Below, piece by piece: positions 2,014 through 59,004 of a DNA stretch of 64,000 bases. A program made the position numbers and the translations under genes. The stretch comes from Pseudeuparius sepicola (taxonomy: Eukaryota; Arthropoda; Insecta; Coleoptera; Anthribidae), in contig OY987300.1 in the NCBI GenBank assembly GCA_963920635.1, forward strand, positions 61,790,915-61,854,914. Reading direction: 5' to 3'. How positions within the stretch are numbered: the first letter of the stretch is position 1; each line of letters begins with the position of its first letter. Below the pieces are notes generated by a model, which was not told where the DNA came from, did not search any database, and saw only the letters and a list, made by a program, of their open reading frames with translations.

Positions 2014-2513
2014 ACAGCCACCGTTACTTTTTAAACAATGTTTTTTTAATGATGAAAATACATACATCTTTATATCAGTATACTTACGCTAAAACAAAAA
2101 AATGATGGAGCTGTGAAATTTGGTATACCGGTATAAAATTGAAAGGCGAACAACTTTTCTGTACATAAATTTTTGAAAATAATGTACCTAATTTGTAGCA
2201 TTTTTTTCAAAAAATGCCAATATTATGAAAAGACGTTATTGTATTTTGTAAACAAAACAATTATTGTCAACATCAAAATTTCCTTAAATCGATTAATACA
2301 AAAATTAACCTGTGATACTGCATATTAATATTAATTTCTTTAAAATCATCCAGAACTTTGAAATTAAAAATTAATTTTTGGAAATTTTTTTAATAATCGA
2401 GTGTCATTTCAAATCGTAAGTGAACCGTAAACTGCCATCGTCGCAGATCTGTTTCGCACCCTTCAGGATGGGGGGGATGTTGCGCCCGTTCGTCCCGCAA
2501 GCCGCCCGCCGGC

Positions 2514-2525
2514 CGTAAGTACCTG
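2514..2525 (-). other. hh: Splice donor of hh exon 1
   Basis: Reading the minus strand, the exon ends CACAG and the intron begins GTACTTACGG. The junction falls between the codon for Gln100 and the next, phase 0, as at the conserved hedgehog intron position. The reading frame stays open past this point in the genome, but the translation loses all hedgehog similarity, which supports the donor. Confidence 0.85.
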
Positions 2526-2822
2526 TGTCATGAGCCGGTCGGCGCCGGTCCCCTCCTCGTCCTTGAACACGATGTCGTCGTTGTAGTTGGGCACGAGCTG
2601 GTCCTGGAAGCGGGTGTCGTTCCTGCCGATGCGCGACTCCGGCGGCCCGCTGGCCGTCAGCACGTTCTCCGCCGTGTTGGGCACGTGCTGCTTGAAGACG
2701 AGCGGCGTCAATTTGCGCGGCCCGCGGCGCCAGCCGGCGCCTCGGCCCGGGCCGCAGCCGCCGGCGCCACCCGTCGCCAGCAGGAGCAGCAGCGCCGCCG
2801 CCACCCCCGCCGCCGCCCTCAT
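2523..2822 (-). CDS. hh: Hedgehog morphogen, coding exon 1 (partial gene)
   Basis: Hedgehog is a secreted signal made as an autoprocessing precursor; this exon encodes the N-terminus. The 100 residues show: a signal peptide (residues 1-22, core AAALLLLLA); the CGPGRG motif whose Cys23 is palmitoylated in the family after signal removal; a basic RRGPRK stretch (32-37) like the heparin-binding site; the [12 protein letters not shown] and VPNYN blocks; and [15 protein letters not shown], where Glu89, Glu90 and Asp95 match calcium ligands of vertebrate homologues. It ends in phase 0 at Met-Thr-Gln, the same junction as vertebrate Shh exon 1, followed by GT. The ATG at 2822 is the first in-frame ATG, has a purine at -3, and puts the hydrophobic core in signal-peptide position. 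Codons are extremely GC-rich compared with the surrounding DNA. The rest of the signalling domain and the Hint domain lie off the left edge. One extra residue precedes LVPNYN ([11 protein letters not shown]) compared with the fly and mouse forms. Confidence 0.96.
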
Positions 2823-2842
2823 GCCTGATCGGCGCGCACCAT
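2819..2842 (-). other. Short uORF whose stop overlaps the hh start codon
   Basis: On the minus strand an upstream ATG at 2842 opens a 7-codon reading frame (MVRADQA) whose TGA overlaps the hh ATG in the string ATGA. The geometry is that of an overlapping uORF which could damp or couple hh translation, provided the transcript starts above 2842. Function is inferred, not shown. Confidence 0.55.
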
Positions 2843-3117
2843 TCGGTCGCCCGCTGGTTGCCGGCGCGGCCACGAACGCGGTACCGACTGAGCGCGGGCC
2901 GCCGCCGGCCGAACGCCGGGCCGTCCCCCGCGCCGCCGCCGCCCATTGGCCGGGCGGCGGCGGCGGGCGGGGCGCCTCCCCCCGCCGCCGGCCGCCGCCG
3001 GACGGGGCGAGGGCGACGCGCGGCGTCGCGGCGCGCCGCGGGGTCGGCGGTCCGGCGCGGACGCGGCCGCCGCTCGCTGCATGGCGCTCTCTTTTGATAC
3101 GTTGGAAATGTTGAGAC

Positions 3118-12084: not shown

Positions 12085-12875
12085 TGTAATAACGTGTTGT
12101 TCTGAATGAAAAATTATGTCTTATGAATAATTATTGCGCTATTTGAAACCGCAATTAGTACAATTAGTTTTCCTATAATTTAATTTTCCTACGGCAGTGT
12201 GTAAAGTAAGATTAGTATTCCGTAGACTTTGGTAAAACCTTATTACGTAAAATAATCATAGGTGCGCAAAATAGATAACTTTAGGTACGGTTCATCACTC
12301 ACTTTTGCTTAAAGTAAACACAACATTTAACAATAAATAGCTAGTTTACGGCCGTGTAGTTTTACTTAGTAGATAAAATAACGAGTTTTGCAGCCAGAAA
12401 GGTATATATTAACTTCTTTTTATAATACCAAGCTTTCGGTCTACTTCGTGACCTTTATCAGGGCTAGAATTTTTTTTAAATTATTAGAAAATATTGAGAA
12501 GAGGTTGAAATTTTACTCACAATTATGTTGAAGTTTTTTATCAATATTAAAACCAGATAGATTTTAGGTTTAACTACAATTTTTTAATTTCTCTGGCAGC
12601 ATACTTGACATTTTTTTCTTTACCGCTTCATTTATACTGCCTGGAACACTATTCGAACCAGGATTTATTGAAAAACATTCATTTTTAATGGTAATAATGT
12701 ATTACAAATTTAAACTCATACTTAACAATTTTTTCGTACCATGACTGTCGTAGAAAAAATTGTATGAAAAACACTATTTTACCCACTTAATACATAAATT
12801 ACTATTTTAAAACGCCTATGACGTCAGTCCTATGGGTTATATTATGGCCATCCTTGTCATCGTAAAATAACCTTG
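12085..12875. other. AT-rich stretch without gene
   Basis: Nothing recognisable. It is the left flank of the element that seeded the satellite. Confidence 0.45.
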
Positions 12876-13357
12876 TACAGGGTGTTCCCGTATATTTTGA
12901 CCCACCCCTAGAGCCTTTATTTTTCGAGTTAGAAAAAAAAATTACTTAAATGAAAATTGTAGGGTTTTTCTGAACCGCTAGGATCTGTTACTAGTTAAAA
13001 CAACTGAGCGTCGCAAATTTATGAAAAAATATAAACTTCCTTTTTTTTAATGGAACACCCTGTATATTTGTGGATTTTTGAATTGCATGCATTTTTCAGA
13101 TTCTAATGATATAAATATGTTATATGTTTGCTATAAGCATTCGCATGATATTCCAAATTGCAAATAAATACCATATTTATACTTAATCAAGGTTGCCATG
13201 GAAAAAACATGTCAACTTAGACAAGAGCATTCCTGTCAATCCATTATTTTTGGGACAATACACCTTGTTACCCAACAACTTTCATTTAAGTAATTTTTTT
13301 CTAACTCGAAACATAAAGACTCTAGGGGAGGGTCAAAATATACGGGAACACCCTGTA
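12876..13357. mobile_element. TIR element that seeded the 107-bp satellite
   Basis: The 482-bp element begins TACAGGGTGTTCCCGTATAT and ends with the inverted form. Its terminal repeats are about 83 bp, run through CGAGTTAGAAAAAAA into an AAATGAAA tract, and differ at only a few positions. TA ends fit a mariner/Tc1-like non-autonomous element. Its last 51 bp are the first half of the adjoining tandem repeat unit. Confidence 0.9.
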
Positions 13358-15874
13358 CAAAATATCTCAGCTGGAAAGGTTTGAAGATCATAGAAAATTT
13401 AGACTGACCAAGTCGAAACATAAAGACTCTAGGGGAGGGTCAAAATATACGGGAACACCCTGTACAAAATATCTCAGCTGGAAAGGTTTGAAGATCATAG
13501 AAAATTTAGACTGACCAAGTCGAAACATAAAGACTCTAGGGGAGGGTCAAAATATACGGGAACACCCTGTACAAAATATCTCAGCTGGAAAGGTTTGAAG
13601 ATCATAGAAAATTTAGACTGACCAAGTCGAAACATAAAGACTCTAGGGGAGGGTCAAAATATACGGGAACACCCTGTACAAAATATCTCAGCTGGAAAGG
13701 TTTGAAGATCATAGAAAATTTAGACTGACCAAGTCGAAACATAAAGACTCTAGGGGAGGGTCAAAATATACGGGAACACCCTGTACAAAATATCTCAGCT
13801 GGAAAGGTTTGAAGATCATAGAAAATTTAGACTGACCAAGTCGAAACATAAAGACTCTAGGGGAGGGTCAAAATATACGGGAACACCCTGTACAAAATAT
13901 CTCAGCTGGAAAGGTTTGAAGATCATAGAAAATTTAGACTGACCAAGTCGAAACATAAAGACTCTAGGGGAGGGTCAAAATATACGGGAACACCCTGTAC
14001 AAAATATCTCAGCTGGAAAGGTTTGAAGATCATAGAAAATTTAGACTGACCAAGTCGAAACATAAAGACTCTAGGGGAGGGTCAAAATATACGGGAACAC
14101 CCTGTACAAAATATCTCAGCTGGAAAGGTTTGAAGATCATAGAAAATTTAGACTGACCAAGTCGAAACATAAAGACTCTAGGGGAGGGTCAAAATATACG
14201 GGAACACCCTGTACAAAATATCTCAGCTGGAAAGGTTTGAAGATCATAGAAAATTTAGACTGACCAAGTCGAAACATAAAGACTCTAGGGGAGGGTCAAA
14301 ATATACGGGAACACCCTGTACAAAATATCTCAGCTGGAAAGGTTTGAAGATCATAGAAAATTTAGACTGACCAAGTCGAAACATAAAGACTCTAGGGGAG
14401 GGTCAAAATATACGGGAACACCCTGTACAAAATATCTCAGCTGGAAAGGTTTGAAGATCATAGAAAATTTAGACTGACCAAGTCGAAACATAAAGACTCT
14501 AGGGGAGGGTCAAAATATACGGGAACACCCTGTACAAAATATCTCAGCTGGAAAGGTTTGAAGATCATAGAAAATTTAGACTGACCAAGTCGAAACATAA
14601 AGACTCTAGGGGAGGGTCAAAATATACGGGAACACCCTGTACAAAATATCTCAGCTGGAAAGGTTTGAAGATCATAGAAAATTTAGACTGACCAAGTCGA
14701 AACATAAAGACTCTAGGGGAGGGTCAAAATATACGGGAACACCCTGTACAAAATATCTCAGCTGGAAAGGTTTGAAGATCATAGAAAATTTAGACTGACC
14801 AAGTCGAAACATAAAGACTCTAGGGGAGGGTCAAAATATACGGGAACACCCTGTACAAAATATCTCAGCTGGAAAGGTTTGAAGATCATAGAAAATTTAG
14901 ACTGACCAAGTCGAAACATAAAGACTCTAGGGGAGGGTCAAAATATACGGGAACACCCTGTACAAAATATCTCAGCTGGAAAGGTTTGAAGATCATAGAA
15001 AATTTAGACTGACCAAGTCGAAACATAAAGACTCTAGGGGAGGGTCAAAATATACGGGAACACCCTGTACAAAATATCTCAGCTGGAAAGGTTTGAAGAT
15101 CATAGAAAATTTAGACTGACCAAGTCGAAACATAAAGACTCTAGGGGAGGGTCAAAATATACGGGAACACCCTGTACAAAATATCTCAGCTGGAAAGGTT
15201 TGAAGATCATAGAAAATTTAGACTGACCAAGTCGAAACATAAAGACTCTAGGGGAGGGTCAAAATATACGGGAACACCCTGTACAAAATATCTCAGCTGG
15301 AAAGGTTTGAAGATCATAGAAAATTTAGACTGACCAAGTCGAAACATAAAGACTCTAGGGGAGGGTCAAAATATACGGGAACACCCTGTACAAAATATCT
15401 CAGCTGGAAAGGTTTGAAGATCATAGAAAATTTAGACTGACCAAGTCGAAACATAAAGACTCTAGGGGAGGGTCAAAATATACGGGAACACCCTGTACAA
15501 AATATCTCAGCTGGAAAGGTTTGAAGATCATAGAAAATTTAGACTGACCAAGTCGAAACATAAAGACTCTAGGGGAGGGTCAAAATATACGGGAACACCC
15601 TGTACAAAATATCTCAGCTGGAAAGGTTTGAAGATCATAGAAAATTTAGACTGACCAAGTCGAAACATAAAGACTCTAGGGGAGGGTCAAAATATACGGG
15701 AACACCCTGTACAAAATATCTCAGCTGGAAAGGTTTGAAGATCATAGAAAATTTAGACTGACCAAGTCGAAACATAAAGACTCTAGGGGAGGGTCAAAAT
15801 ATACGGGAACACCCTGTACAAAATATCTCAGCTGGAAAGGTTTGAAGATCATAGAAAATTTAGACTGACCAAGT
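13307..15874 (+). repeat. 24-copy tandem array of a 107-bp unit (transposon-end satellite)
   Basis: The unit starts CGAAACATAAAGACTCTAGG. Starts at 13307, 13414, 13521 and so on to the array end at 15874 give exactly 24 x 107 = 2568 bp, and I saw no difference between copies. Each unit is 51 bp of the right terminus of the element at 12876-13357 plus 56 bp of flanking DNA (CAAAATATCTCAGCTGGAAA... to ACCAAGT). The unit boundary has a 3-bp TCG shared by the element (ACTCGAAAC) and the far flank (AAGTCGTCAAA), as expected for microhomology-mediated duplication. There is no coding potential. Confidence 0.97.
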
Positions 15875-18394
15875 CGTCAAATGTACTCTATTTCCACATC
15901 AGTGGTGCTTTTAAATTGGGTTAACAATAGAGCCCCAAAATCTTTAAAATCGAATGCGATATTGGTACTCATGTGATAAAAACTATAGCTTCAAGGTACT
16001 TGAAAAAAGGTCAAGTACAATATTGTGGAAAAGTGCTAACACCTCTACGTCTTAGGAGTTCTCTTATAGTCCTAAAGAATTTTCTCTGCCAGCAAATGTA
16101 AAATAGCAGCCTCGTCTCACTCGTCTCTCATTGTGTTGCCCAACAGAGAAGGGGGAAATATGACAAATGACTGTAATCTGCCATTGTGATTGGAACATAA
16201 AATCTGTGTTAACTTGATGACGCCCTAGACTGGCTTACGTTGTTGTAAATTACATTACACGTCGATATAATATCTGATTATACATCCTTTTACCTTTTGT
16301 TTTAAGCACTGGCGGCACAACGCGTAGGTATCGTTTCCGCCGCATGTGGTCCGACGGTGTGGCAAAAATATGGTGGCATCTTCGTTACCTGGCCGGCGCT
16401 TATGAGACCTTCCATTATAAGATTCATAATTGGTTTCCCTTTTCTCACACTCGGGCGGAATGCGATTGAAAATGGTCGTTCGGCCATCACGTGATGGCTT
16501 TCGCTCGATGCGAAATTACAACCTACCTCTATATTATCGTGGTGTTGAAAATTATATTTTAACTTATGCGGGCAGCATTTCGTACTTTTGCCTACAGTAA
16601 TATAGTCGTAATATAGGGAGATACCTAGCTATCTGAGTTACACAACTTCTATGGAAATTACAATATATTATTTAAAACAGATCTTTTTTCGAAAGTTGTA
16701 GCATTTCTTTCGATCATCAGAATTTGCTATCAGGTAAAACAAATGGACATCACAACACTGAGAAAAATATAAACTTAAATTGAACACCTTTTAAACTTTG
16801 GATCATCTGCCTGATGAATAAATTCGAACATGAAACGTTACGAGATAATAATATAAAGTTTTATACAGTTTTCATTGTGAGTAGATCTGAAAAATACAAA
16901 AATATATAGGGTGTTCCTTTAAAAAACGAGAGTTTAGTTTGTCACTGTTTTGTGTATAAAATCGCCGGGTATCACCATAAAAAGCTACACAATTTGGTGT
17001 TTGCACGTTTTATGATTGTTTTCTAGGGCGAAGAATAACAAAGTTAAGAAGGGAAATCAAATCAAATCAATACTCGTTGGGATTGATTCATTTGTATCTC
17101 CAGGATATTCGTCTATATTCAAACTCGTGTTTCTACGGTATGAGAAAAAAAACTGCTACGTGCTAGGAAGAAGTTTTAATTTGAAGTGTGTGTTTTCGGT
17201 TTTAGCACAGTTGTTGTCTATTACATTTTACTAAGTTATTATATTTAAATTATTTTGCCGGTTTCTAATAGATACTACTGCAGCATAAAAAAATCAATCA
17301 AATCTGAAAAATTAAATTCCTTTTATGTGAAGAACATTAGCATCCACTCCTCGATTTACAGCACTAATCCACGGCACTTGGTATTCTGTATCTGTATAGG
17401 TAGAATTATCTACCGAGTTATTATTACTTAAAAAGTGCTAGTCATGAAATATTAATTGATATAGAAACTTAAGAAAAACACATAAAAAAACGACAAATAT
17501 GAATGATGAAACGCAAACATTATACGTTTTCATACGAGTACCCGCCACGATAAAATCGGTCTCACAGTGATACGATCTGGTCGATTCGAGCATTCAGAAA
17601 AATGAATCTTAACAGTGTTCGATATCTGGCGGAGCATGTATTTGGAACAAATAAACACTGTTATTTCGCAAAAAAATATCGGAATGACATTAAATGGTAA
17701 TTCTCCTTTATACAATTTAAGATAACCTGGTTTTATGTGTTTACAGTTAGTTACGATGTTAATCACCTATTGAATACATGCGAGTTTTTCTTCGACTCGC
17801 TGCTCCAATTGTGAACATGTTATTTATTTTTAACCAACTGGTAATAGTTTTAATAGAATTTTTAGTCTAAAAAGTAGCCTATTCTTAGATTTCCCCTCAC
17901 AAATTCCAGAATTTCTGCCCTAGCATAATATTCCTTGCGCGTTTTTCTTTTTTGTCCCGGATTTTGCATGTTATTCCCACGGTAAATGCACCAAACTTTT
18001 ACTTGGCCTATCGAAGAGCAATCCGTGTGACGATTATTAAATTCGAAGATAAATTAAATTGCAAAATACACAAAAAGTGACAAATAACGTGCTAACAATT
18101 TATTTGACATCAGCTGGAATATTCAGGCTTTATTGCTATGGCACACTTTGCGAAACGCAGAATTTAATTGAAATGCTATTTTTGGATTTCTTTTATTAAA
18201 CTTTGAACTCGGGGTTTTGTGAACAATTGTGAACAATTGAATCGAAAGAACAATTTCTATTAGAAAAATTTCTAAAATCTAAAGTTTATCAGAAGAGAGT
18301 TACATGTCAAAAAGTTTTTCGAGGCACTAAAAAAAGTTGGGGGCAGTCCTTGAAAATGCAGGGGGTCATGTTAAATTTTATTAAATCATATTAA
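15875..18394. other. Mostly unique sequence; one GC-richer block
   Basis: Around 16305-16520 is a GC-richer block (GGCGGCACAACGCGTAGG, GGTCGTTCGGCCATCACG) with a short open frame on the minus strand that resembles nothing known; it could be a small conserved non-coding element. A lone element terminus (GGGTGTTCC) is near 16908. The rest is AT-rich with no gene. Confidence 0.4.
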
Positions 18395-19708
18395 ATTAAT
18401 CGTTCTTAGTTGTGTCAGTGGGTAGCGGTTTGGTAGCGAAGAATAAATTTGGGAAGGGGGCTATTTCAAGATTTCGGGGGGCTTAGCCCCCCCCCCCAAG
18501 CCCCCACCTTGAACCGCCTATGGGTAAGACCCATACATTTTAGGACTACTTTCGTTTCCCCGTAAATCTTCCTAAAGTCTTCCATTTTTTATTTCATTAT
18601 GTATATACTTAGTGTGTCCCAGCCCAGGATAAGTGAAATGAGAGGTGTAAAAGACCAAAAATTTTTGGGTTCGAATTTGGCCATTTGGGCCTGCTTGCCT
18701 AGAAAATAATTAATTTTTACCATATTTTTAATTTTGAAAAATAAATTATAGGCCCTGACAGGAACGATTTATTTATTTTCTGTGTAGGTTAAGTGCTCTT
18801 TCTCGACAAGATATCGAAAAATTTCATTAGAAAAAGTCGCTTATAATTGAAAACTATGACCCTGTGTCAATTTTCAAAATAATTGGCCTACTTTGATTTT
18901 TGTCCACTTTATTTCCTATAAGTAGGTGAACCATCCTTGTCGTTTAAAATATCGAAAAATTTCATTAGAAAAAGTTATTCAGAATAAATAATAAATGCAA
19001 GACTGCGAAATTTGGACTCAATCGGCGTACTATGATTTGTTATAGGAAATAAAGTGGACAAAAATCAAAGTAGGCCAATTATTTTCAAAATTGACACAGG
19101 GTCATAGTTTTCAATTCTAAGCAAATTTTTCTAATGAAATTTTTCCACATTTTAAACGACAAGGATAGTTCACCTACCTATAGGAAATAAAATAGACGAA
19201 AATCAAAGTACCTAGGCCAATTATTTAGAAAATTGGCATAGGGACATAATTTTCAATTATCAGCAACTTTTTCTGATAAAATTTTTCGATATCTTGTCGA
19301 GAAAGGTCACTTAACATACACAGAAAATAAATAAATCGTTCCTGTCAGGGCCTATAATTTATTTTTCAAAATTAAAAATATGGTAAAAATTAATTATTTT
19401 CTAGGCAAGCAGGCCCAAATGGCCAAATTCGAACTCAAAAATTTTTGGTCTTTTACACCTCTCGTTTCACTTATCCTGGGCTGGGACACACTAAGTATAT
19501 ACATAATGAAATAAAAAATGGAAGACTTTAGGAAGATTTACGGGGAAACGAAAGTAGTCCTAAAATGTATGGGTCTTACCCATAGGCGGTTCAAGGTGGG
19601 GGCTTGGGGGGGGGGGCTAAGCCCCCCGAAATCTTGAAATAGCCCCCTTCCCAAATTTATTCTTCGCTACCAAACCGCTACCCACTGACACAACTAAGAA
19701 CGATTAAT
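18395..19708. mobile_element. 1.3-kb foldback palindrome with nested inverted elements
   Basis: The arms run from ATTAATCGTTCTTAGTTG (18395) to its inverse ending 19708, centred near 19051. The outer 220 bp of each arm look virtually identical, including a C/G homopolymer flanked by GGGGCTTAGC. Inside, at 18616-19490, lies a more diverged TIR element (GTGTCCCAGCCCAGGATAAG). The outer arms are thus younger than, or better conserved than, the core. No coding sequence is seen. Confidence 0.9.
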
Positions 19709-38674: not shown

Positions 38675-40613
38675 TACAAGGTGATCATTTTTGGACGTCC
38701 ATCCTCTGTTGGTAGAAAACGGTCAAATATATGGAGATGATGTGTATAAAGGAATGAACTGGCCCATTTAGCGACTCTGTGCAAATATGACGCTAGGCGT
38801 CGCGACGCCAAGAAATATTTTTTCCCACCAACGTAGAGGAAGACACCCAAATTTGAGACACTCTTTTTTTAAATTCGAAATAAAATTCACCGTTAATTTT
38901 TTTTTTTAATATTGTATTTGAATACTTTATACTATTTAAAAAACAGTGATACAAAGAAACTACATTAAAATAGCGATCTAGAAAGAAAAAATAGTGCCAG
39001 ATTTCAATGAAATATCATTAAGCAATACCTACTAACTAACCCAGTTTATTTTAATTAGTCTAGGCTATTTCTGTTAGATGGCGTTACATATCCTTTAATA
39101 TAAGGAGCTATCTCAAATTAGACACCTATATAAAATTTGGGTATCTTCCTCTACCACTTTTGTTATATTGTTCCAAAGCCCTACTTTTTCTGAACATTTT
39201 TCATTCATGCCATTTTTCTTTTTTCTGTTCCGTTAAAAAGTTATTCTTGAAAAACGCATAAAATATTAATTTTGGTTAATCGCAAATGACGTAGCGTTTT
39301 CAATGATTTTATTTTTGAGGATATTCCTCCGACCCTTTATTTATTTAGAAGATCTTCAGATCGCGTCTTTTGACCTTCTTACCATTGTCAACATACAAAT
39401 CCAGGACCGGCTACAATTGTTTTATAACCTCAATTTTCACTAAGTGCATTTAGCGATTTTTTTAAAACTTTATACGGGTCAAATGCACCCTGGAATTATT
39501 ATAAATTATAGGAAATGTATTATATAATTAATAATATAAATGAAAAAATAATCATTATTATAAATTATTGGAAATGTCTTATATAATTAATAATATAAAT
39601 GAAAAAAAAATCATTTTTTTACAAAGTACCATCCAACAAGTAAAAAACGATTTAAACTATTGGACTTTTCTCGACAAAGCTATCCTCTAATAAAATTATA
39701 CCTTTTTCTATGGGTTTCTGTTGTGGCACAGTACCCGCCTTAACTTATCTGGACTTACTGACTGTCAGCCTTCTGTAAATGTTAGACGTAGTTCGCTTAT
39801 AATTTCTGCGGAGATTTTGATACACCAATTTTTATCGCCGTATAGGTAAAGTTTAAAAAAATGTACCACTTTGAGTTGGCACAGAGAAAATACAGGTTGT
39901 AAATTTGTTATTGGATCTTTACATATACCAATACCCGGTGTGGTTCTGTCGACCATTTAACTGTTTTGAGGCAATTCCATGGCATACTTCATACTTGACT
40001 CTTGACCCGCCAGATTCCTTTAAAATTTGTGGATGGTATATTTTTTGTTCAAATTTGGTATAATGGGGGGGGGGGGGTTCTGTGGTGTCTTTCTTTACGC
40101 TGTGGTGTCCGATTTTAAACAAATAAATCGCTAAATGCATTTGGTGAAAATTTGGGGTATAAAAAAAAGTGTACCTAGCCGGTCCTGGATTTGCATGTTG
40201 ACAACGGTAAGAAGGTCAAAAGACGCGGTTTGAAGACCTTTCAAACAAATAAAGGGTCGGGGGAATATCCCCAAAAATAAAATCATTGAAATCGCTACGT
40301 CATTTGCGATTAACAAAAATTAATATTTTAATGCGTTTTCGAAGAATAACTTTTTAACGGAAGATAATAAAGAAAAATGGCATAGGAAAATTAGGGCTTT
40401 CGAATGATGTAACAAAAGGGGTATGTTGTAGAAAAAAAAATTTTCTTGCCGACGCGACGCCTAGCGTCGTATTTGCAAAGAGTCGCTAAATGGGCTAATT
40501 TATTCCTTTATAATCCTATAATATAATCTCCAATATATAGGTAATATCTTCATATATTTGACTGTTTTTCACCAAGAGAGGCTGGGCGTCTAAAAATGAT
40601 CACCTTATTTGTA
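38675..40613. mobile_element. 1.9-kb foldback element, TACAAGGTGATCATTTTT termini
   Basis: TACAAGGTGATCATTTTTGG at 38675 faces its inverse ending 40613 (with a 4-bp insertion at the tip). The arms share GCGTCGCGACGCC / GACGCGACGCCTAGCGTCG and CCCATTTAGCGACTC. Further in, ATCGCAAATGACGTAGCG and CAAATCCAGGACCGGCTAC are mirrored too. The core matches the element at 5215-6207. A G13-14 run is at 40065-40078 and a 90-bp local tandem (ATTATATAATTAATAATATAAATG) at 39500-39605. There is no coding sequence. Confidence 0.85.
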
Positions 40614-41143: not shown

Positions 41144-42206
41144 TCTTTGAGAAAGGAGGTAGATTTATTCTCCGCAAGCTCAGAAAACAAATGTATGTGC
41201 TGTTTGAGGGCCGATATTTCGTCAGAAGTTTTAAATGAAGAAATTACTTATTTCCAGTGGGAATCTAAATCAGAGGAAACAGTTATAAAAGGGCAAACAA
41301 AAAAAATTAGAAGAACAATAAAAAGCAACAAAGTTTCAACTGTAAAGAAATTGCTTGAAACCCTAAACAAACAAGCCACTGAATTTTTAAAACATTACTT
41401 TAGAATGTATCACCAGTTGGAGCAATTACAAATTATGAAAAAAAGTATCTCTCCAGAGGAACTCATAATACAGATTGACTTCTCGGAAAACTATGTGACT
41501 AAGTTTACATCTGAGATTCAGTCAATGCATTTTGGTGCTTCAAAAAGGCAAATTTCTCTTCACACTGGGGTGTACTATTTTCGCCGTAATATTTCCTCCT
41601 CTGTCGAAAACAAGAGCTTTTGCTCTGTAAGCGACAATTTAGATCATCAGTCCTATGCCATCTGGGCCCACCTTGAAGAGCTTTTGTTGGATCTTTCTTC
41701 TCAATACCCGCAAGTTACTAAATTACATTTTTTTTCTGATGGTCCAACGTCGCAATATCGCAACAGGCATAATTGCAATTTCCTAATAACTAAAATTCCA
41801 TCTTATTTTAAAGATGTAAATGAAGTATCCTGGAATTTTAGTGAAAGTGGACACGGCAAAGGACCAATGGATGGTGTGGGAGGAACACTAAAAAGATCTG
41901 CCGATAGTATGGTTTTACATGGTCATGATATATCAGATGCACGTACTTTTGTCGAGAAACTCAATCCTACAAGCTCCATAAAAATTTGGAAAGTTGAATA
42001 CGAAAAAATCGAACATTTCAAAAAGGAATTATCCCCAAATGTGCCTGCTATCCCGGCTATAATGTCAGTACATCAAATAACTTGGTCTAAAGATATTCCT
42101 TCAAGTATATTCATTAGAGAGCTTAGTTGTTTTTCTTGCAATTTGGGCTCAAAATGCATCCACTTCAGCCCAAAGACTCCACTGGTACTTCTCTCTGAGA
42201 CGAAAA
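41144..42206 (+). CDS. Transposon-derived protein with DDE-like core, exon A
   Basis: About 353 codons are open from 41144 (TGA at 41141) to a GT donor at 42207. The first ATG is at 41195, so either translation starts there (a C-x-C-C-x16 region follows) or the exon is entered from an upstream exon. The protein has LIIQIDFSENY (Asp at residue 111 counted from 41147), LHTGVYYF, LHFFSDGPTSQYRNR (Asp198) and WNFSESGHGKGPMDGVGG (Glu233, Asp242). This series of acidic motifs in hydrophobic strands is like an RNase-H-fold (DDE) transposase core. I know the GHGKG-DGVGG type of motif from unnamed repeat-derived proteins in insects and other animals but cannot give a family name. The exon is long, intact and free of stops, unlike other transposase remains here. 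It leaves 1 nt of a codon at its end (phase 1). Confidence 0.75.
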
Positions 42207-42287
42207 GTATCCTTTAAGTACTAGTTTTTAAACTTTACAAACATAATTATTAAAAAAACCAATTTTTCCCTTAACAATGCTTTCTAG

Positions 42288-51787: not shown

Positions 51788-53172
51788 TACAGTGTGTCCC
51801 CGGATAGGTGAAACGACTCTTGTAAAAGGAAAAAAAATAGAGTTGAAATTTGAGCTTGTGAGCTTCAGCCTTGCTTGTTTTGAAACTAATTTGTGATATA
51901 ATTTTAGTTTCGAAAAATCGATAGTTACGACGAAATCTTATTAAGAAAATGTGTTCAGAAAAAGTAAGTAGGTAGCAAAGTTTCAAAAGTCTAAGCCTAC
52001 TTCGGTTTTTTGTTTTTTCCCACTTTCCTGGGCTTTCTGTAGCTTTTATGTCAAAATGTTGTTAAGAAAACTTGTTCATGATGATAAACTGAGTAGGTGT
52101 GATAAATTTCAAAAACTTAGGCGTACTTTGATTTTTCTTGCATTTTATTTTTTTTAGCCTAGGCCCCTGCTTTTGAAATTTCTCACATTTACTCATTTTT
52201 TATCATGAACAAGTTTCTTTAACAACATTTTGATGTGAAAGCTACAGAAAGGGTACTTTTCTAAAGAAAAAGGGGAAAAAGGCGAAAAATCGACGTAGGC
52301 AGTTAGACTTTTGACACTTTGCAAACCTACTCAGTTTTTCATTCTGAACAAGTTTTCTTAATACAATTTTACCGTAAAGCTTGCAGAAAGGCTACTTTAC
52401 TGATGTGAAATATTATTTTTCTTGAAATCGGCATTAAAATGTCCCAAAATCGTCATTAAAAGCACAGAAATCGTACAATAATGTAGCCCATTATTATACG
52501 ATTTTTTCAATAAGTAGGCCTTGGCGAGATGTAAACATCAAACGTCAGACGCGGAGAAATCGCCCGTCAAAAGTGACCAAATATTCAAAACCCGGCCGAT
52601 AAAGGCTCATTTAACTTTTCGTACACATTGCGAAATTGTTTCCTATAGAAGGGCAATCCTTCAGTATACATATTTTAGTAAATTTTAAAATCAATAGATT
52701 TGTTGTGTAGGCTGCACAAGAAGCAGCAGTTTGGTTTTTCTGTCGGAAGGTGCCGTACATCATTATACTTGTCCTATAGAGCGATCGGTAAAGTCAAGCA
52801 ACGCCGCGCGTAGTCGGTTCGTGGACGGGTGATCCCTTATTATTATTTTCTTGCCTAATAAAACAATTTTTTTTCCGATTTCAAGAAAAATATAATATGT
52901 ACCTCGGCACTGAAGTTCTTTTTATGACTCATGTGGTTTATTTGCCTCGGCCAGAGGCCTCAGCAACTAAACTCCACATGAGTCATAAAAAGTTGAACTT
53001 CAGTGCCTTGGTACATAAATAACTATTTTTCGAAATTTCCAAGGCATACGTGATTTTTCGAAACTATAATTATGTCAAGTTAGTTTCAAACCAAGCAAGG
53101 GTGAACTGTGAAAACTCAAATTTCAACTCTAATTTTTTTTGCATTTTACAAGGGTCGTTTCACTTATCCTCG
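51788..53172. mobile_element. TIR element, TACAGTGTGTCCCCGGATAGG; host of an R1 copy
   Basis: The left terminus TACAGTGTGTCCCCGGATAG returns inverted near 53145-53172, but the last bases of the right end are missing. The arms share GTTGAAATTTGAGC, TTGCTTG and TTTCGAAAAATC. Inner mirrored blocks (CCTAGGC, TTTTGATGTGAAAGCTACAG / CTGTAGCTTTTATGTC) make it a decayed foldback. The R1 repeat at 52418-53030 is nested inside. Confidence 0.8.
52418..53030 (+). repeat. Dispersed repeat R1, near-complete copy
   Basis: It begins TTTCTTGAAATCGGCATTAA, has a hairpin (AATCGTACAATAATG / CATTATTATACGATT), AAAACCCGGCCGATAAAGG, a GTCGGTTCGTGGACGGGTGA motif, and ends in a 150-bp palindrome (TGTACCTCGGCACTGAAG ... 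CTTCAGTGCCTTGGTACA). It is the inverted partner of 58121-58737 with high similarity. The box-C-like string may point to a Pol III-derived origin. Confidence 0.8.
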
Positions 53173-53639
53173 TCTTCTAGGATTCAGCGAGGAAGCAAAA
53201 GAGTATACTGCGTAGGATTTACTAATTAACTTTTAATATTTTTCATTTGGACTCGAACATAAATATAAAATGATTTCCTATCTACTCCCAGTTCCCTCTT
53301 ATTTACTCCCATGGATCGTATTGTCTGCACGTGCCATCTTATCTAACTTTACAGACGAAAAATATCTACACATTGGCAAACAAAGAAAATATTTGTCTAA
53401 TAACTGTCGGTGGTTGTTTGACTAGGTAAAGAATAATGAAGTTTTCTTTAAAAACACAACCAGAATACATAAACGGTAAAAGTGCTTATTAGCATTATTG
53501 TAGTTTTACTTAGTGAGGAATCTTAGATTCCAACACATTGGAAAGGACTCGTAGGGTTAAGGTCACCGCTTTCAAACGATTTACGACACCAACTGATGGT
53601 TTGTTCTGTACTGAATAAATGTGGGGAAACGTTATTCCA

Positions 53640-53757
53640 CCTATACAAAATACTCCAAAAGAGTACCCCAGAAATGCTTGTGCGGGGGGTGGCAGTTACT
53701 ATTATTTCGGCTTCATTGCCAGTTGCGGCTAGGACCGATTTCTTCCCGATAGAACTA
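53640..53757 (+). repeat. Repeat R2, left part (split by mariner insertion)
   Basis: AATGCTTGTGCGGGG... CATTGCCAGTTGCGGCTAGG matches 45218-45308. The match stops at the TA where the element at 53758 begins and resumes at 55641. Confidence 0.65.
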
Positions 53758-55640
53758 TACAGTATGTCCACGGATGGGGTAAATAAGAGGACAAATGGAC
53801 CAAAAAGTGAAAGATACGAAAAAATGTTATTCTTTATAAAAGTTTTTGCTTGCTTTAAAAATAAGATCCACGATGCCAAAAATTTATTTTTTTTGTACAG
53901 GGTATGCAAAAAATACAAAAACGTAAAATTTGATGAAGAGTAAAGTTGGCTTTTTATAAATTTTAATGCAAAACGTTAAATAAAAAACTTGTTTGAAATT
54001 TTAAAATAATTCTTATTCCAGATTTTCAAGGAAAAATTTGAAATTTCTAAATTACTCTTTTATAACCGAAATTTTTCCAAGTCATATTCTGACCTTTTTA
54101 TTTGATTACGCCATTGATAACTGCTACTGTGACATATTTGTCAAAATAAGAACGATGTTGTCTTTAGAGCAAAGAATATTTATAATCCAAAATTACAGAA
54201 ACGGCGAGAATAGTTATCGCTACGTTATTGAGAAGTTTCAAGAAAAGTTTCCAAATGAACAATTATGCATAACTTCAGTACATAAGTTAGTAATCAGATT
54301 TAAAAAAACTGGATCCGTTAATGATTTAAAGAAGACGAAGAAAAGATACGACGAAAACGATGCTTCTACAGTATTAATTTTGCAATCTGTTGATGGATTT
54401 TTGTTTGTGGCTCGGTGATGAAATTCTAAATAACACCGTGAACTTTCATAAGCTGATAATGTTCTCAGATGAGTCAACCTTCAGTACAAACGGCACTGTA
54501 GCCTCTCAGCGTTGGGTGCTCTCAGCATGTGAGATACTGGAGTAGGAAAAACCCAGAGTTTAGAATTGGGAAGCGCCGCCAGTATTTTAAAAAAGTTAAT
54601 GTTTGGTGCGCCATTTCCTATTATGGGGTTATAACTACGGAGCGCTATAAGAGTTATAACATATTTTTTTGATAATACCATTGACATATTATATAATACG
54701 TGTAACAGACATTCTTATTTGCATATGCTGGAGTCATTTCTGTCATTGCCTCTTCAATATCGCCAAAATATGTATTTTCAGCACGATGGGTGTCCTGCCC
54801 ATTATGCTACAGAAGTCAGGGATTGGCTCAATCGCAAATTTGAAAATCAATTAATGGGCCGAAATGGTCCAATTTTGTGGCCCCCTAGGAGTCCCGACTT
54901 GACAATTTGTGATATGTTTCTGTGGGGGCGCATTAAACAACTAACATATGAAAGACCCATTGAAAATAACCAAGAAGTTTTAAAGCAGAGAATTTTAAGA
55001 GCGATATAATCAATTTCACTAGGAGAAATAAGAAGCAGATTTAGCCATTTACGACGTCAGTTAGAAAAATGCGTAGAATATGGAGGAGAAGTTTTTGAAA
55101 AATAAAAATAATATGCTCCTAATTGTTTTAAAGTTTAATAAAATAAGAAATATTTCTCGAGTATTACAATTATTATTTAATATTCCATTAGTAATTTTAT
55201 TTAACCTGTCTGTAATTTTGGATTATAAATATTCTTTTCTCTAAAAACATCTTTCTTATTTTGACAAATACGCCACAGTTATCAAAGGTGTAATCAAATA
55301 AAAAGGTCAGAATATGACTTGGAAAAATTTCGGTTTTAAAAGAGTAATTTAGAAATTTCAAATTTTTCCTTGAAAATCTGGAATAAAAATTCTATTAAAA
55401 TTTCGAACAAGTTTTTTATTTAACGTTTTGCATTAAATTTTATAAAAAGCCAACTTTACTCTTCATCAAATTTTACGTTTTTGTATTTTTTGCATACCCT
55501 GTACAAAAAGACAAATTTTTGGCATCGTGGATCTTATTTTTAAAGCAAGCAAAAACTTTTATAAAGAATAACATTTTTTCGTATCTTTCACTTTTTGGTC
55601 CATTTGTCCTCTTATTTACCCCATCCGTGGACATACTGTA
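53758..55640 (+). mobile_element. Mariner-type transposon with long inverted repeats and broken transposase
   Basis: The 1883-bp element has TACAGTATGTCCACGGATGG at the left and its exact inverse at the right (55621-55640). Inverted repeats of about 360 bp run from there to the GATTACGCC/GGTGTAATC region near 54113 and 55288. TA lies at both ends. The unique centre carries a decayed transposase (54155-55105). It is inserted into repeat R2, which dates it as younger than R2. Confidence 0.92.
54155..55105 (+). pseudogene. Mariner/IS630-type transposase, frameshifted (DUF4817-like HTH plus DDE_3-like core)
   Basis: In order: MLSLEQRIFIIQNYRNG... a helix-turn-helix N-terminus like the DUF4817 domain of insect transposases (54155-54330); a deletion; LIMFSDESTF with the first catalytic Asp (about 54455-54485); WSRKNPEF...VNVWCAISYYG; MYFQHDGCPAHYATEVRDWL with the second Asp; WPPRSPDLTICDMFLWG with the third; and a C-terminus EYGGEVFEK ending TAA at 55103. 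At least three frame breaks and an in-frame TAA near 55007 rule out function. Counting by hand, 41 residues separate the second Asp from the Asp of ICD, a DD41D spacing. Confidence 0.88.
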
Positions 55641-55860
55641 TATGAAGTGGGTGTAGGACAATTGCTAAATCACGTACAGATAAGATATTATTAGCGTTCT
55701 TGGCTATCAGCGGTGTTTTCCTATAAAGACTTGTAAACTTGCGCTCTCTACCCGAATCGATCCAAGGTGGATCGAAGGCAGAAATCATCCAGTCCAAATA
55801 GTACCTATGCGCGACGCTAGGAACGTCGCCACCGAGGTCGGAGTGATAACAAACGTGGGC
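55641..55860 (+). repeat. Repeat R2, right part
   Basis: ATCAGCGGTGTTTTCCTATA, CGAATCGATCCAAGGTGGAT, ATCCAGTCCAAATAGTA and CTAGGAACGTCGCCACCGA match 45462-45580. Together with 53640-53757 it reconstructs the order seen in the uninterrupted copy. Confidence 0.65.
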
Positions 55861-56355
55861 AACTTCTGGATCCACATTTATATATCTTCACAACCGCAGA
55901 ATAGCGCGGGTACACGCTCCAGTTCCCCCAGCGAAATTCTAGCCGGGACCTCTCGGTTGCCGAGGAGCCCGCGGTCGCCATCGCCGACTCGCACGTATCC
56001 GTTGGCCACCGAGCACACCAATAAAAATATTGAGTTACTGCAACGGAAACGGCTGGGCACAAACAAAGATAGCGGGCGCTGATATAAAAATCCCGAAGAC
56101 AAAATATGCACGCGATATCGGGTGCCCGCCGCCCGCCGTCGCGAGTTCACCAACCTCGGCGTTGCTGAGCCGAGCTGAGCTTATCTGCTGATGGCGCGAA
56201 AGCTCCGCATGCGCAGCAGATTCCAATCTGGAGTGCGCCACTATAAGTCATCAAAAGATTGCAAAAGAAGTCCAACCTACCCGGTTACCGTGATGCGCCT
56301 TTTGGAATCAGTCGAGCACCTAAATAGAATCAATTGCGCACCTAACTCGCACGCC
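55861..56355 (+). promoter_or_regulatory. GC-rich block with TATA-like string, candidate regulatory element
   Basis: Unique GC-rich DNA (CCGAGGAGCCCGCGGTCGCC, GGTGCCCGCCGCCCGCCGTC). A plus-strand GATATAAAAATCCCG lies at about 56081-56095 and could be a TATA box. Downstream reads GAGCTTATCTGCTGATGGCG, with a TTATCT GATA-type site. No reading frame is convincing. It may be an enhancer or a promoter of an unseen transcript. Confidence 0.35.
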
Positions 56356-58120
56356 ATTACCTCTCAATGACACATATAAGGTAGCTGGAAGCTAGAAGAG
56401 TTTAATGAGAAGCATTTAGTAACATCTGGGATGGATTGTAATAAATTATGTTTCTTCCTATCGTACTTATATAATCAGCATCGTATATTTGATCATTATT
56501 TATCATAATGAATGCAGTAGTTGAAGGCACTAGCTCATGTTTGGGACCCCCTATAGAATTTTTTATTTTTGACGTGGCTAGGCCAGTTTAAATGTGGACA
56601 ATTCTGAAATGAACACCTTCAATATTTGCTTTGAGAAGAACATCTGCCCAGAATATTTTTTGGCTGGACTAGAGGATATCCATTACGAACACGGACACTC
56701 AGGTGAAGGTTAGTGTGGAAGTCTCGCCCCTATAGGGGCATACCTATACTAAAACATCTCGATTGAGATATTCATTAGTTTGAGAAAGATATTTGGTCTG
56801 GAGTGGTGCGGTGTTGGTTACCTACTTAAAGAAGCCTTGACCTTTAAGTTATATTCTATTGCATATAGAGGTGTGGACTTTGCTTATGGAAAGAATTGGG
56901 AGGTAGGTTCGAATTGAGGAATCGGAGAAGGATTCTTCGCTATGTAAGTCAAAGAGTGAAGTTTGATGTTTGGTCGTTTATGTGAAAGATTGTGGTAATC
57001 TGTTGCAGCTCTGAGATGGGGGTTAGAATGAGTTTCCGTAGGTTCTCCGACCGAAACGGTTCCTTGATAAAGTCGTTCAAGAATGGGATATCGAAATCAC
57101 AACGAATATTACGATTGGCCATATTACAATAAACACATAAGGACTTTATTTTAAACGACTTGCAAGATTTTATATCGAGAATTGTATTAAGTATAAATTT
57201 AAATAGGTGTGGTAATCTCTAACATTCTACGATACGGAAGCAAGATTCAGAGGGGAGTTTTACCAAAATTGTTTTCTTAAAAAATTGCTGATGCGGTAGG
57301 TTTTAACTTTTAGATAATAATACCATGTGAGTAGGTAATGTTAATATAGGAACATACCTGCTGACCTACTTAAGAAAGAAATACAACACATAAATATACG
57401 CAGTGTGTTCCAGGTTGTTTATATAGGGTGTACCAGAGTCAGTAGTCTAAACTAACCCTGTGCATAGGGAACCCTATATAGGGCCATCCGAAGTTTGACG
57501 GTTTAGAAGTAAATCATAAAAGTAAAAGTGAACTTTTATGATTTTCTGGAAAATTCGTACAACTTCTCCGCAGAAGGATCACTATTTTGTAAAAGGATAG
57601 AGTTGAAATTTGATCCAAGCATACTCCGATGTCGTTAGCTATCTGACCCAACTTAAACATATGATTTACAGTTGATACGCAATAGGTGTTTATTTTTGTT
57701 TTTGGTAAAAGTACCTACAAGTGTTACACAAATCAAGATTCAAAGACAAATTTTAGAAAGTTGGGTTATTCTATCAACGCAAACATAGAACCTGAAAACT
57801 ACCCTGGGGATCGGTTAATCTACAGCGTTAGTGTTGAAAAATGCACGATGGTAAAAAATCGGTTAACTGAAATTGAGTAAAATTGTAGTAAAAACACAGC
57901 ATTGTTATTTATTATAATAGCAGCACAGAGATTATGGTCCTTAAATAGGATTATTATGGAATGAAACTAGAATCGCATACTGGGGAGAAGTCTATTGTTT
58001 GAAGTTTGCAGACAATATGCACTGTAGAGATGAACTTGATGCTCGGGCTTCCGTTCTTTTTATTGATGACATCCTACACTACATTTCGATCAGTACTTAT
58101 TTCTGATCATTTTCAGGTGA
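56356..58120. other. AT-rich stretch without gene
   Basis: Isolated termini lie at 57424-57436 (TAGGGTGTACCAG) and 57464-57488 (AGGGAACCCTATATAGGG). Around 57590-57625 is a short match to the GTTGAAATTTGA block of the 51.8-kb element. No coding sequence is seen. Confidence 0.4.
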
Positions 58121-58737
58121 AAAATAGTTATTTATGTACCAAGGCACTGAAGTTCAACTTTTTATGACTCATGTGGAATTTAGTTGCCGAGGCCTCTGGC
58201 CGAGGCAAATAAACCACATGAGTCATAAAAAGAACTTCAGTGCCGAGGTACATATTATATTTTTTTTGAAATCTGAAAAAAAATGTTTTGTAAGGCAAGA
58301 AAATAATAAGAAGGGATCACCCGTCCATGAACCGACTACGCGCGGCGTTGCTTGACTTTGACGATCGCTCTACCTAGGTCAAGTATGATGAGACACCGGC
58401 ACCTTCTGACAGAAAAACCAAACTGCTGCTTCTTGTGCAGCCTACACAACAAATCTATTGATATTTAAATTTACTAAAATATGTATACTGAAGGATTGCG
58501 CTTCTATAGGAAACAATTTCGCAATGTGTACGAAAAGTTAAATGGGCCTTTATCGGCCGGGTTTTGAATATTTGGTCACTTTTGACGGGCTATTTCTCCG
58601 CGTCTGACTTTTGATGTTTACATCTCGCCAAGGCCTACTTATTGAAAAAATCGTACAATAATGGGCTACATTATTGTACGATTTCTGTGCTTTTAATGAC
58701 GATTTTGGGACACTTTACTGCCGATTTCAAGAAAACT
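58121..58737 (-). repeat. Dispersed repeat R1, near-complete inverted copy
   Basis: The whole order of 52418-53030 appears reversed: palindrome TGTACCAAGGCACTGAAG first, GATCACCCGTCCATGAACCG, GGCCGGGTTTTGAATATTTG, the AATCGTACAATAATG hairpin, and GCCGATTTCAAGAAAA last. The two copies form a 0.6-kb inverted pair about 5 kb apart. Confidence 0.8.
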
Positions 58738-59004
58738 TATTTTCATGTTCAACTGAAAAAAAAACTTGAAAACGATCAGAGATAAGTAGTAACTAATAAT
58801 AATACCAATAATTTGCCAAGTCCTTGCACCAGGAACTGACAGAAAAACAGCTTCTAGCCAAAGAAAATCCCATATTACTTACAGCTAGACGCCGAAGCCT
58901 GTTCTTGAAAATCAAACTACAATATGTATACGAGTAGACGGATATTAGATATTTAAAGATTGCTCTAGTTAAGATAATAAAATTGTACGTCCCCAATAGA
59001 TTTT

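Follow-up and report, generated by a model that had tools for sequence, protein, structure and literature searches.

The 64-kb stretch of DNA analysed here (hereafter the window) contains no N bases. A hedgehog N-terminal signalling exon (PF01085, E 6.2e-28, residues 121-200) lies within 2463-3116 of its minus strand. Twenty-five PDB sequences matched this exon, every one of them a hedgehog protein, and the homology stops at ...ADRLMTQ, which in hedgehog genes is the end of the first coding exon. Among the 120 listed of 641 database matches to this piece, the top one reached 84% over 84%, the best named by E-value came from the beetle Asbolus verrucosus (81% over 82%), and the cockroach Blattella germanica was also represented (83% over 83%). 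Overall, the window resembles DNA of an insect, or at any rate of an arthropod, and the beetle matches to this exon and to an ORF at 41144-42217 point weakly to Coleoptera. Some 10 kb upstream of the hedgehog coding exon, a distance that provides the only hint on its chromatin setting, lies a tandem array of 107-bp units that begins inside the right end of a short element with terminal inverted repeats (TIRs).

This parent element (12876-13357, no strand assigned) is a non-autonomous, MITE-like TIR element of 482 bp, TA target duplications included, with the tips TACAGGGTGTTCCCG. Its inverted arms (12873-12939 and 13294-13360) are 67 nt long and 96% complementary, and alignment of its two 85-bp ends revealed three substitutions in the outer 52 bp, where the left TIR departs from the right TIR at 12904, 12914 and 12921, and a 2-bp gap plus a fourth substitution deeper inside. 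The TIR element that the initial annotation had placed beside the array is therefore real. Both ends are bordered by TA (TA-CAGGGTG ... CACCCTG-TA, at 12876 and 13357), which corresponds to a TA target-site duplication, a pattern that a TA owned by the TIR would also produce; with the tip TA counted as target duplication, the element proper spans 12878-13355. As befits a short element without a transposase, it contains no stop-to-stop ORF of at least 120 aa. BLAST, with matches starting within 13300-15880 filtered out, found one copy of the element in the window, and besides that copy and its own inverted parts it returned one 37-bp match (89%) at 16890-16926. The part of the element that matches there (13043-13079; 89% over 37 bp) surrounds a further tip of the same kind, on the minus strand at 13064, and the parent element may consist of two related elements joined together.

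The parent element is probably of the Tc1/mariner type. Support for this assignment, without proof, comes from a second element with related tips and transposase pieces, a TA-flanked, mariner-like element of 1.9 kb (53756-55642, plus strand) that is not part of the array. Its tips (TACAGTATGTCC) are similar to those of the parent, not the same, and it is the sole element with transposase pieces identified in the window. Two separate open pieces (54005-54418 and 54635-55009) contain the transposase matches, which comprise a PF16087 helix-turn-helix match (E 2.2e-6), a PF13358 DDE_3 match that at 20.8 bits lies below the model cut-off of 28.6 and, in the PDB, a weak match (E 0.0071) to the Sleeping Beauty transposase; the predicted transposase is interrupted. 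Related tips are abundant: 33 sites in the whole window match TACAGGGTGTYCC with at most two mismatches when the array is set aside and both tips of the parent are counted, whereas 20 first-order Markov sequences gave 0.75 such sites on average and 3 at most. Few of these TACAGGGTGTYCC-like tips were paired into elements. The 29 listed matches to TACAGGGTGTTCC in the window, a listing that left out minus-strand matches within the array, continue into mostly different inner sequences, and this tip seems to be common to many distinct elements.

A direct scan of the window for exact period 107 returned one maximal tract of 24.03 units, at 13306-15876 (plus strand), in which 2571 bp (24 x 107 + 3) show zero mismatches. 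TRF described the same array (period 107, 24.0 copies, 100% matches, 0% indels) with a score of 5142, whereas the runner-up among the 17 rows for the window scored 221. The earlier claim of 24 identical 107-bp units is thus borne out, the additional 3 bp being a TCG that is common to both breakpoints. In unit 1, the transposon-derived part (13306-13357, plus strand) corresponds to the terminal 52 bp of the right TIR and still belongs to the element, as seen from the scan and the TIR alignment, and the flank-derived part comprises the next 55 bp (13358-13412, plus strand). BLAST found nothing similar to this 55-bp part elsewhere in the window at E 1e-3, matches starting within 13300-15880 having been filtered out. 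The initial annotation had divided each unit into 51 bp of transposon and 56 bp of flank; the joining of a transposon end to flanking DNA stands, and 51+56 is one of four equivalent phases, becoming 52+55 when the TCG is put on the left. When matches at 12861-15879 were left out, the sole 13-mer of the unit found elsewhere in the window was TTTTGTACAGGGT, which spans tip and flank and occurs at 53891 and, reversed, at 55496, both sites lying within the inverted arms of the 53756-55642 element. Exact copies of the TIR tip CGGGAACACCCTGTA number 24 on the plus strand and one on the minus strand, at 12876. Every unit therefore does contain a complete tip, as had been observed before, and these are copies of sequence whose role as transposase binding sites is putative.

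Head-to-tail repeats of tens to ~100 bp that form an array of kb size, as 24 x 107 bp do, correspond to a minisatellite or VNTR. Since TRF found one array of the 107-bp unit in 64 kb, the earlier label of “satellite” is too strong for what is a single array of 2.6 kb. A coding repeat was considered and rejected: 107 cannot be divided by 3, and the stop-free stretches in the array reach 62 codons at most. There is no need to invoke hairpin-driven amplification, since the unit folds no better than its shuffles (z of -0.13 and 0.34 for the two strands, and -1.17 in another phase). Exact-match scans for the element and flank gave 0 matches in a viral collection (three patterns) and 0 in a prokaryote collection (one pattern), results that are expected for insect DNA and that say little, since records close to the window's own genome may be missing from these viral and prokaryote collections.

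The differences between the two TIRs identify the source of the array. All 24 units carry the right-TIR form at all three of the 52 positions that separate left from right, which means that the array was derived from the right end of the parent copy after its insertion. Amplification followed insertion, because every unit holds the transposon end while the left tip is present once. Local birth from a transposon end and its flank, which the initial annotation had proposed, is accordingly upheld as far as the window shows.

The left breakpoint (13306-13308, plus strand) lies inside the right TIR beside a poly-T tract, in the context TTTTTTTCTAAC-TCG-AAAC, and the right breakpoint (15874-15876, plus strand) reads GACCAAG-TCG-TCAAATG. 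To the left of the left breakpoint the right TIR still follows the left TIR, so the left border consists of genuine element sequence. The sequence to the right of the array, on the TCAAATG side, which the initial annotation had taken for a right parent still in place, is presumably the ancestral right flank; this flank and the copy number of 24 come from one assembly. The TCG microhomology noted earlier is indeed present at both breakpoints, but it is weak evidence for a mechanism: a junction match of at least 3 bp accompanied 7.3% of duplications of 60-199 bp placed along the locus, and 6.6% of those of exactly 107 bp. The 3-bp homology alone is not significant, and we rejected it as proof of end joining (P ~0.07). 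The junction fits end joining or template switching and proves neither. The array itself, by contrast, cannot be explained by chance.

Together, these data argue for a young, locally born array of the minisatellite type, a reading to which we assign a probability of about 0.8. In the sequence of events that we envisage, a Tc1/mariner-type MITE would first have inserted at a TA site. A single 107-bp segment, reaching from the interior of the right TIR to 55 bp past the element, would then have been tandemly duplicated at two points that share TCG, whether by end joining, fork template switching or slippage. Finally, the two identical 107-bp direct repeats could have grown to 24 copies by unequal sister-chromatid exchange, break-induced replication, a short rolling-circle step or replication slippage, at a pace that outran the marking of units by mutation. 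In a published general model, as set out in the available portions of two sources (PMC9659126, PMC12628747), tandem repeats start from transposable element ends, which are first duplicated through microhomology, with unequal exchange as the next step. A function for the array need not be assumed, and it may well be neutral. At a mutation rate of ~2.8e-9 per site per generation, as in Drosophila, and with no homogenisation assumed, zero differences in 2571 bp would place an upper bound of ~0.4 million generations on the age of the array; homogenisation via unequal exchange would loosen that bound. The array is probably very young.

Amplification through a circle, in which an excised 107-bp circle or a rolling-circle product was re-inserted at the locus by homology, would produce the array in one step. 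The full identity of the units fits such a step, and rolling-circle re-insertion has been proposed as a route to satellites (PMC4079207 and PMC12628747, in their available portions). On the other side, the array lies collinear with the element to its left, and no signature sets a circle apart from unequal exchange. We regard this route as unlikely; it is a variant of the expansion step and does not exclude the local birth that we favour.

The absence of variation over 2571 bp is also what a loop in an assembly graph would be expected to produce, raising the question of whether an assembler or gap filler multiplied a real but small duplication, of two or a few units, into 24 identical copies. 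However, the window is free of N and spells out long, near-identical inverted repeats, which suggests that it comes from a long-read assembly, and a single long read would easily cover an array of 2.6 kb. Short-read assemblers, moreover, usually collapse identical 107-bp repeats rather than expand them. An artefact of this kind therefore seems to us quite unlikely.

We consider it very unlikely that the array at 13306-15876 is one member of a pre-existing, dispersed satellite family, since its units bear the right-end form of precisely the adjoining element copy, and the array runs on directly from that copy, the only one of this element found in the window. Least probable of all is an origin in which the first duplication arose from aberrant cleavage or repair by mariner at the right end: the array does start in a TIR, and TIR elements have been reported to promote duplications via gap filling and template switching, but the same source, in the portions available, ascribes most single-copy events to transposition-independent gap filling (PMC8277862), and a direct product of transposase cutting is disfavoured because neither breakpoint lies at the element's tip, one being 52 bp inside (TA counted) and the other 55 bp outside. 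The likelihoods that we attach to these alternatives are not mutually exclusive, nor do they exclude the preferred reading of a young array born at this locus.

Arrays whose source can still be recognised are already in print, among them Tetris/TIR-220 (PMC4079207) and yeast CUP1 (PMC4232551), so that the statement in the initial annotation that most satellites have lost their origin, though plausible, has to be set against such cases. The comparisons that follow draw on the available portions of each source. In Drosophila virilis, the Tetris/TIR-220 repeats resemble the array described here in that they arose in tandem from a DNA transposon's inverted repeats, their sources are still recognisable and their arrays reach kb size (PMC4079207). 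TIR-220, however, lies within the TIR, has a unit of ~220 bp, is ~94% similar overall and amounts to 610 repeats on 69 contigs (PMC4079207), whereas the unit here straddles transposon end and flank, is known from one locus and is 100% identical. The Xenopus repeats Xstir and miDNA4 also tie a MITE, in the case of miDNA4 a Tc1/mariner MITE, to an expanding tandem repeat, and microhomologies have been invoked for miDNA4; the reviews differ on the source of Xstir, one tabulating it as TIR and the other as internal sequence (PMC12628747, PMC9659126). In contrast to our array, in which about half of each unit is external flank, both Xenopus repeats are described as part of the MITE.

Like the present array, yeast CUP1 arrays have been compared with their own single-copy borders, where junction homology is 3 bp or less and the first duplication is of non-homologous origin; unlike it, they have units of 1.2-2 kb with a copper-resistance gene and 0.5% divergence among repeats, and the available text reports no transposon end (PMC4232551). 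Animal Pack-TIRs likewise combine TIR transposons, duplicated non-transposon sequence and microhomology at the breakpoints (a median of 2 bp; 67.6% have it at one breakpoint at least), but there the sequence is captured into the element and forms no tandem array, as far as the available text goes (PMC8277862). For mollusc satellites, junctions without a common architecture are described (PMC5139131, in part). Motif searches of the literature for the family name of the TIR assigned no family; one gave unrelated papers among the matches listed, and another led, among those listed, to one similar tip, that of MITE_83.0 of Rhodnius prolixus (“Tc1-like ?”), whose TACAGGGTGACC is close to the tip of the parent element; the remainder of its TIR differs, and the portion of the source available mentions no tandem array (PMC4678618). 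In the literature covered, which was available in part, we met no case of a half-TIR, half-flank unit at a single locus, and since this search was not exhaustive, we claim no novelty for it.

The founding events of tandem repeats can seldom be read, because later turnover erases the breakpoints. At this locus the product still adjoins its source element and the left breakpoint, and the differences between the TIRs assign the array to a single end of a single copy. The array is a clean, probably young example of a known process. The derivation of tandem repeats from transposon ends is already well documented, and the general view of transposon termini as a recognised source of such repeats (PMC9659126, in part) stays as it was. 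The locus is suited to testing how fast a new array grows and whether the transposon ends within it are used. With a single left end and 24 alternative right ends, the MITE could in principle form a nested ladder of possible elements (482, 589, 696 ... 2943 bp, as computed from the left end to each right end) that a mariner transposase might move together with part of the array, seeding monomers and host flank elsewhere. We view such mobility as a long shot; if true, it would amount to a satellite dispersing itself via a transposon's spare ends.

Several other features of the window merit description. A 357-aa ORF on the plus strand (41144-42217) has no Pfam match and 234 database relatives; among the 120 of these that were listed, the best two named are from the beetles Diabrotica balteata and Ignelater luminosus, and those named also include moths, whitefly, thrips, spider, molluscs, fish and a priapulid. 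The ORF perhaps encodes a transposon protein that lacks a Pfam model. Long inverted arms at 52409-58743 (pieces of 347, 171 and 97 nt, 93-96%) lie ~5 kb apart and enclose the 53756-55642 element, an arrangement that may represent a foldback-like structure or a large TIR element. At 39495-39615, a 59-bp unit is repeated 2.1 times at 95% between the inverted arms 39259-39413 and 40176-40330, possibly as a small duplication inside another element. Lastly, a near-palindrome of 1.3 kb occupies 18395-19708, with 496-nt arms that are 97% complementary, more inverted repeats further in, and ATTAATCGTTCTTAG ends on both sides.
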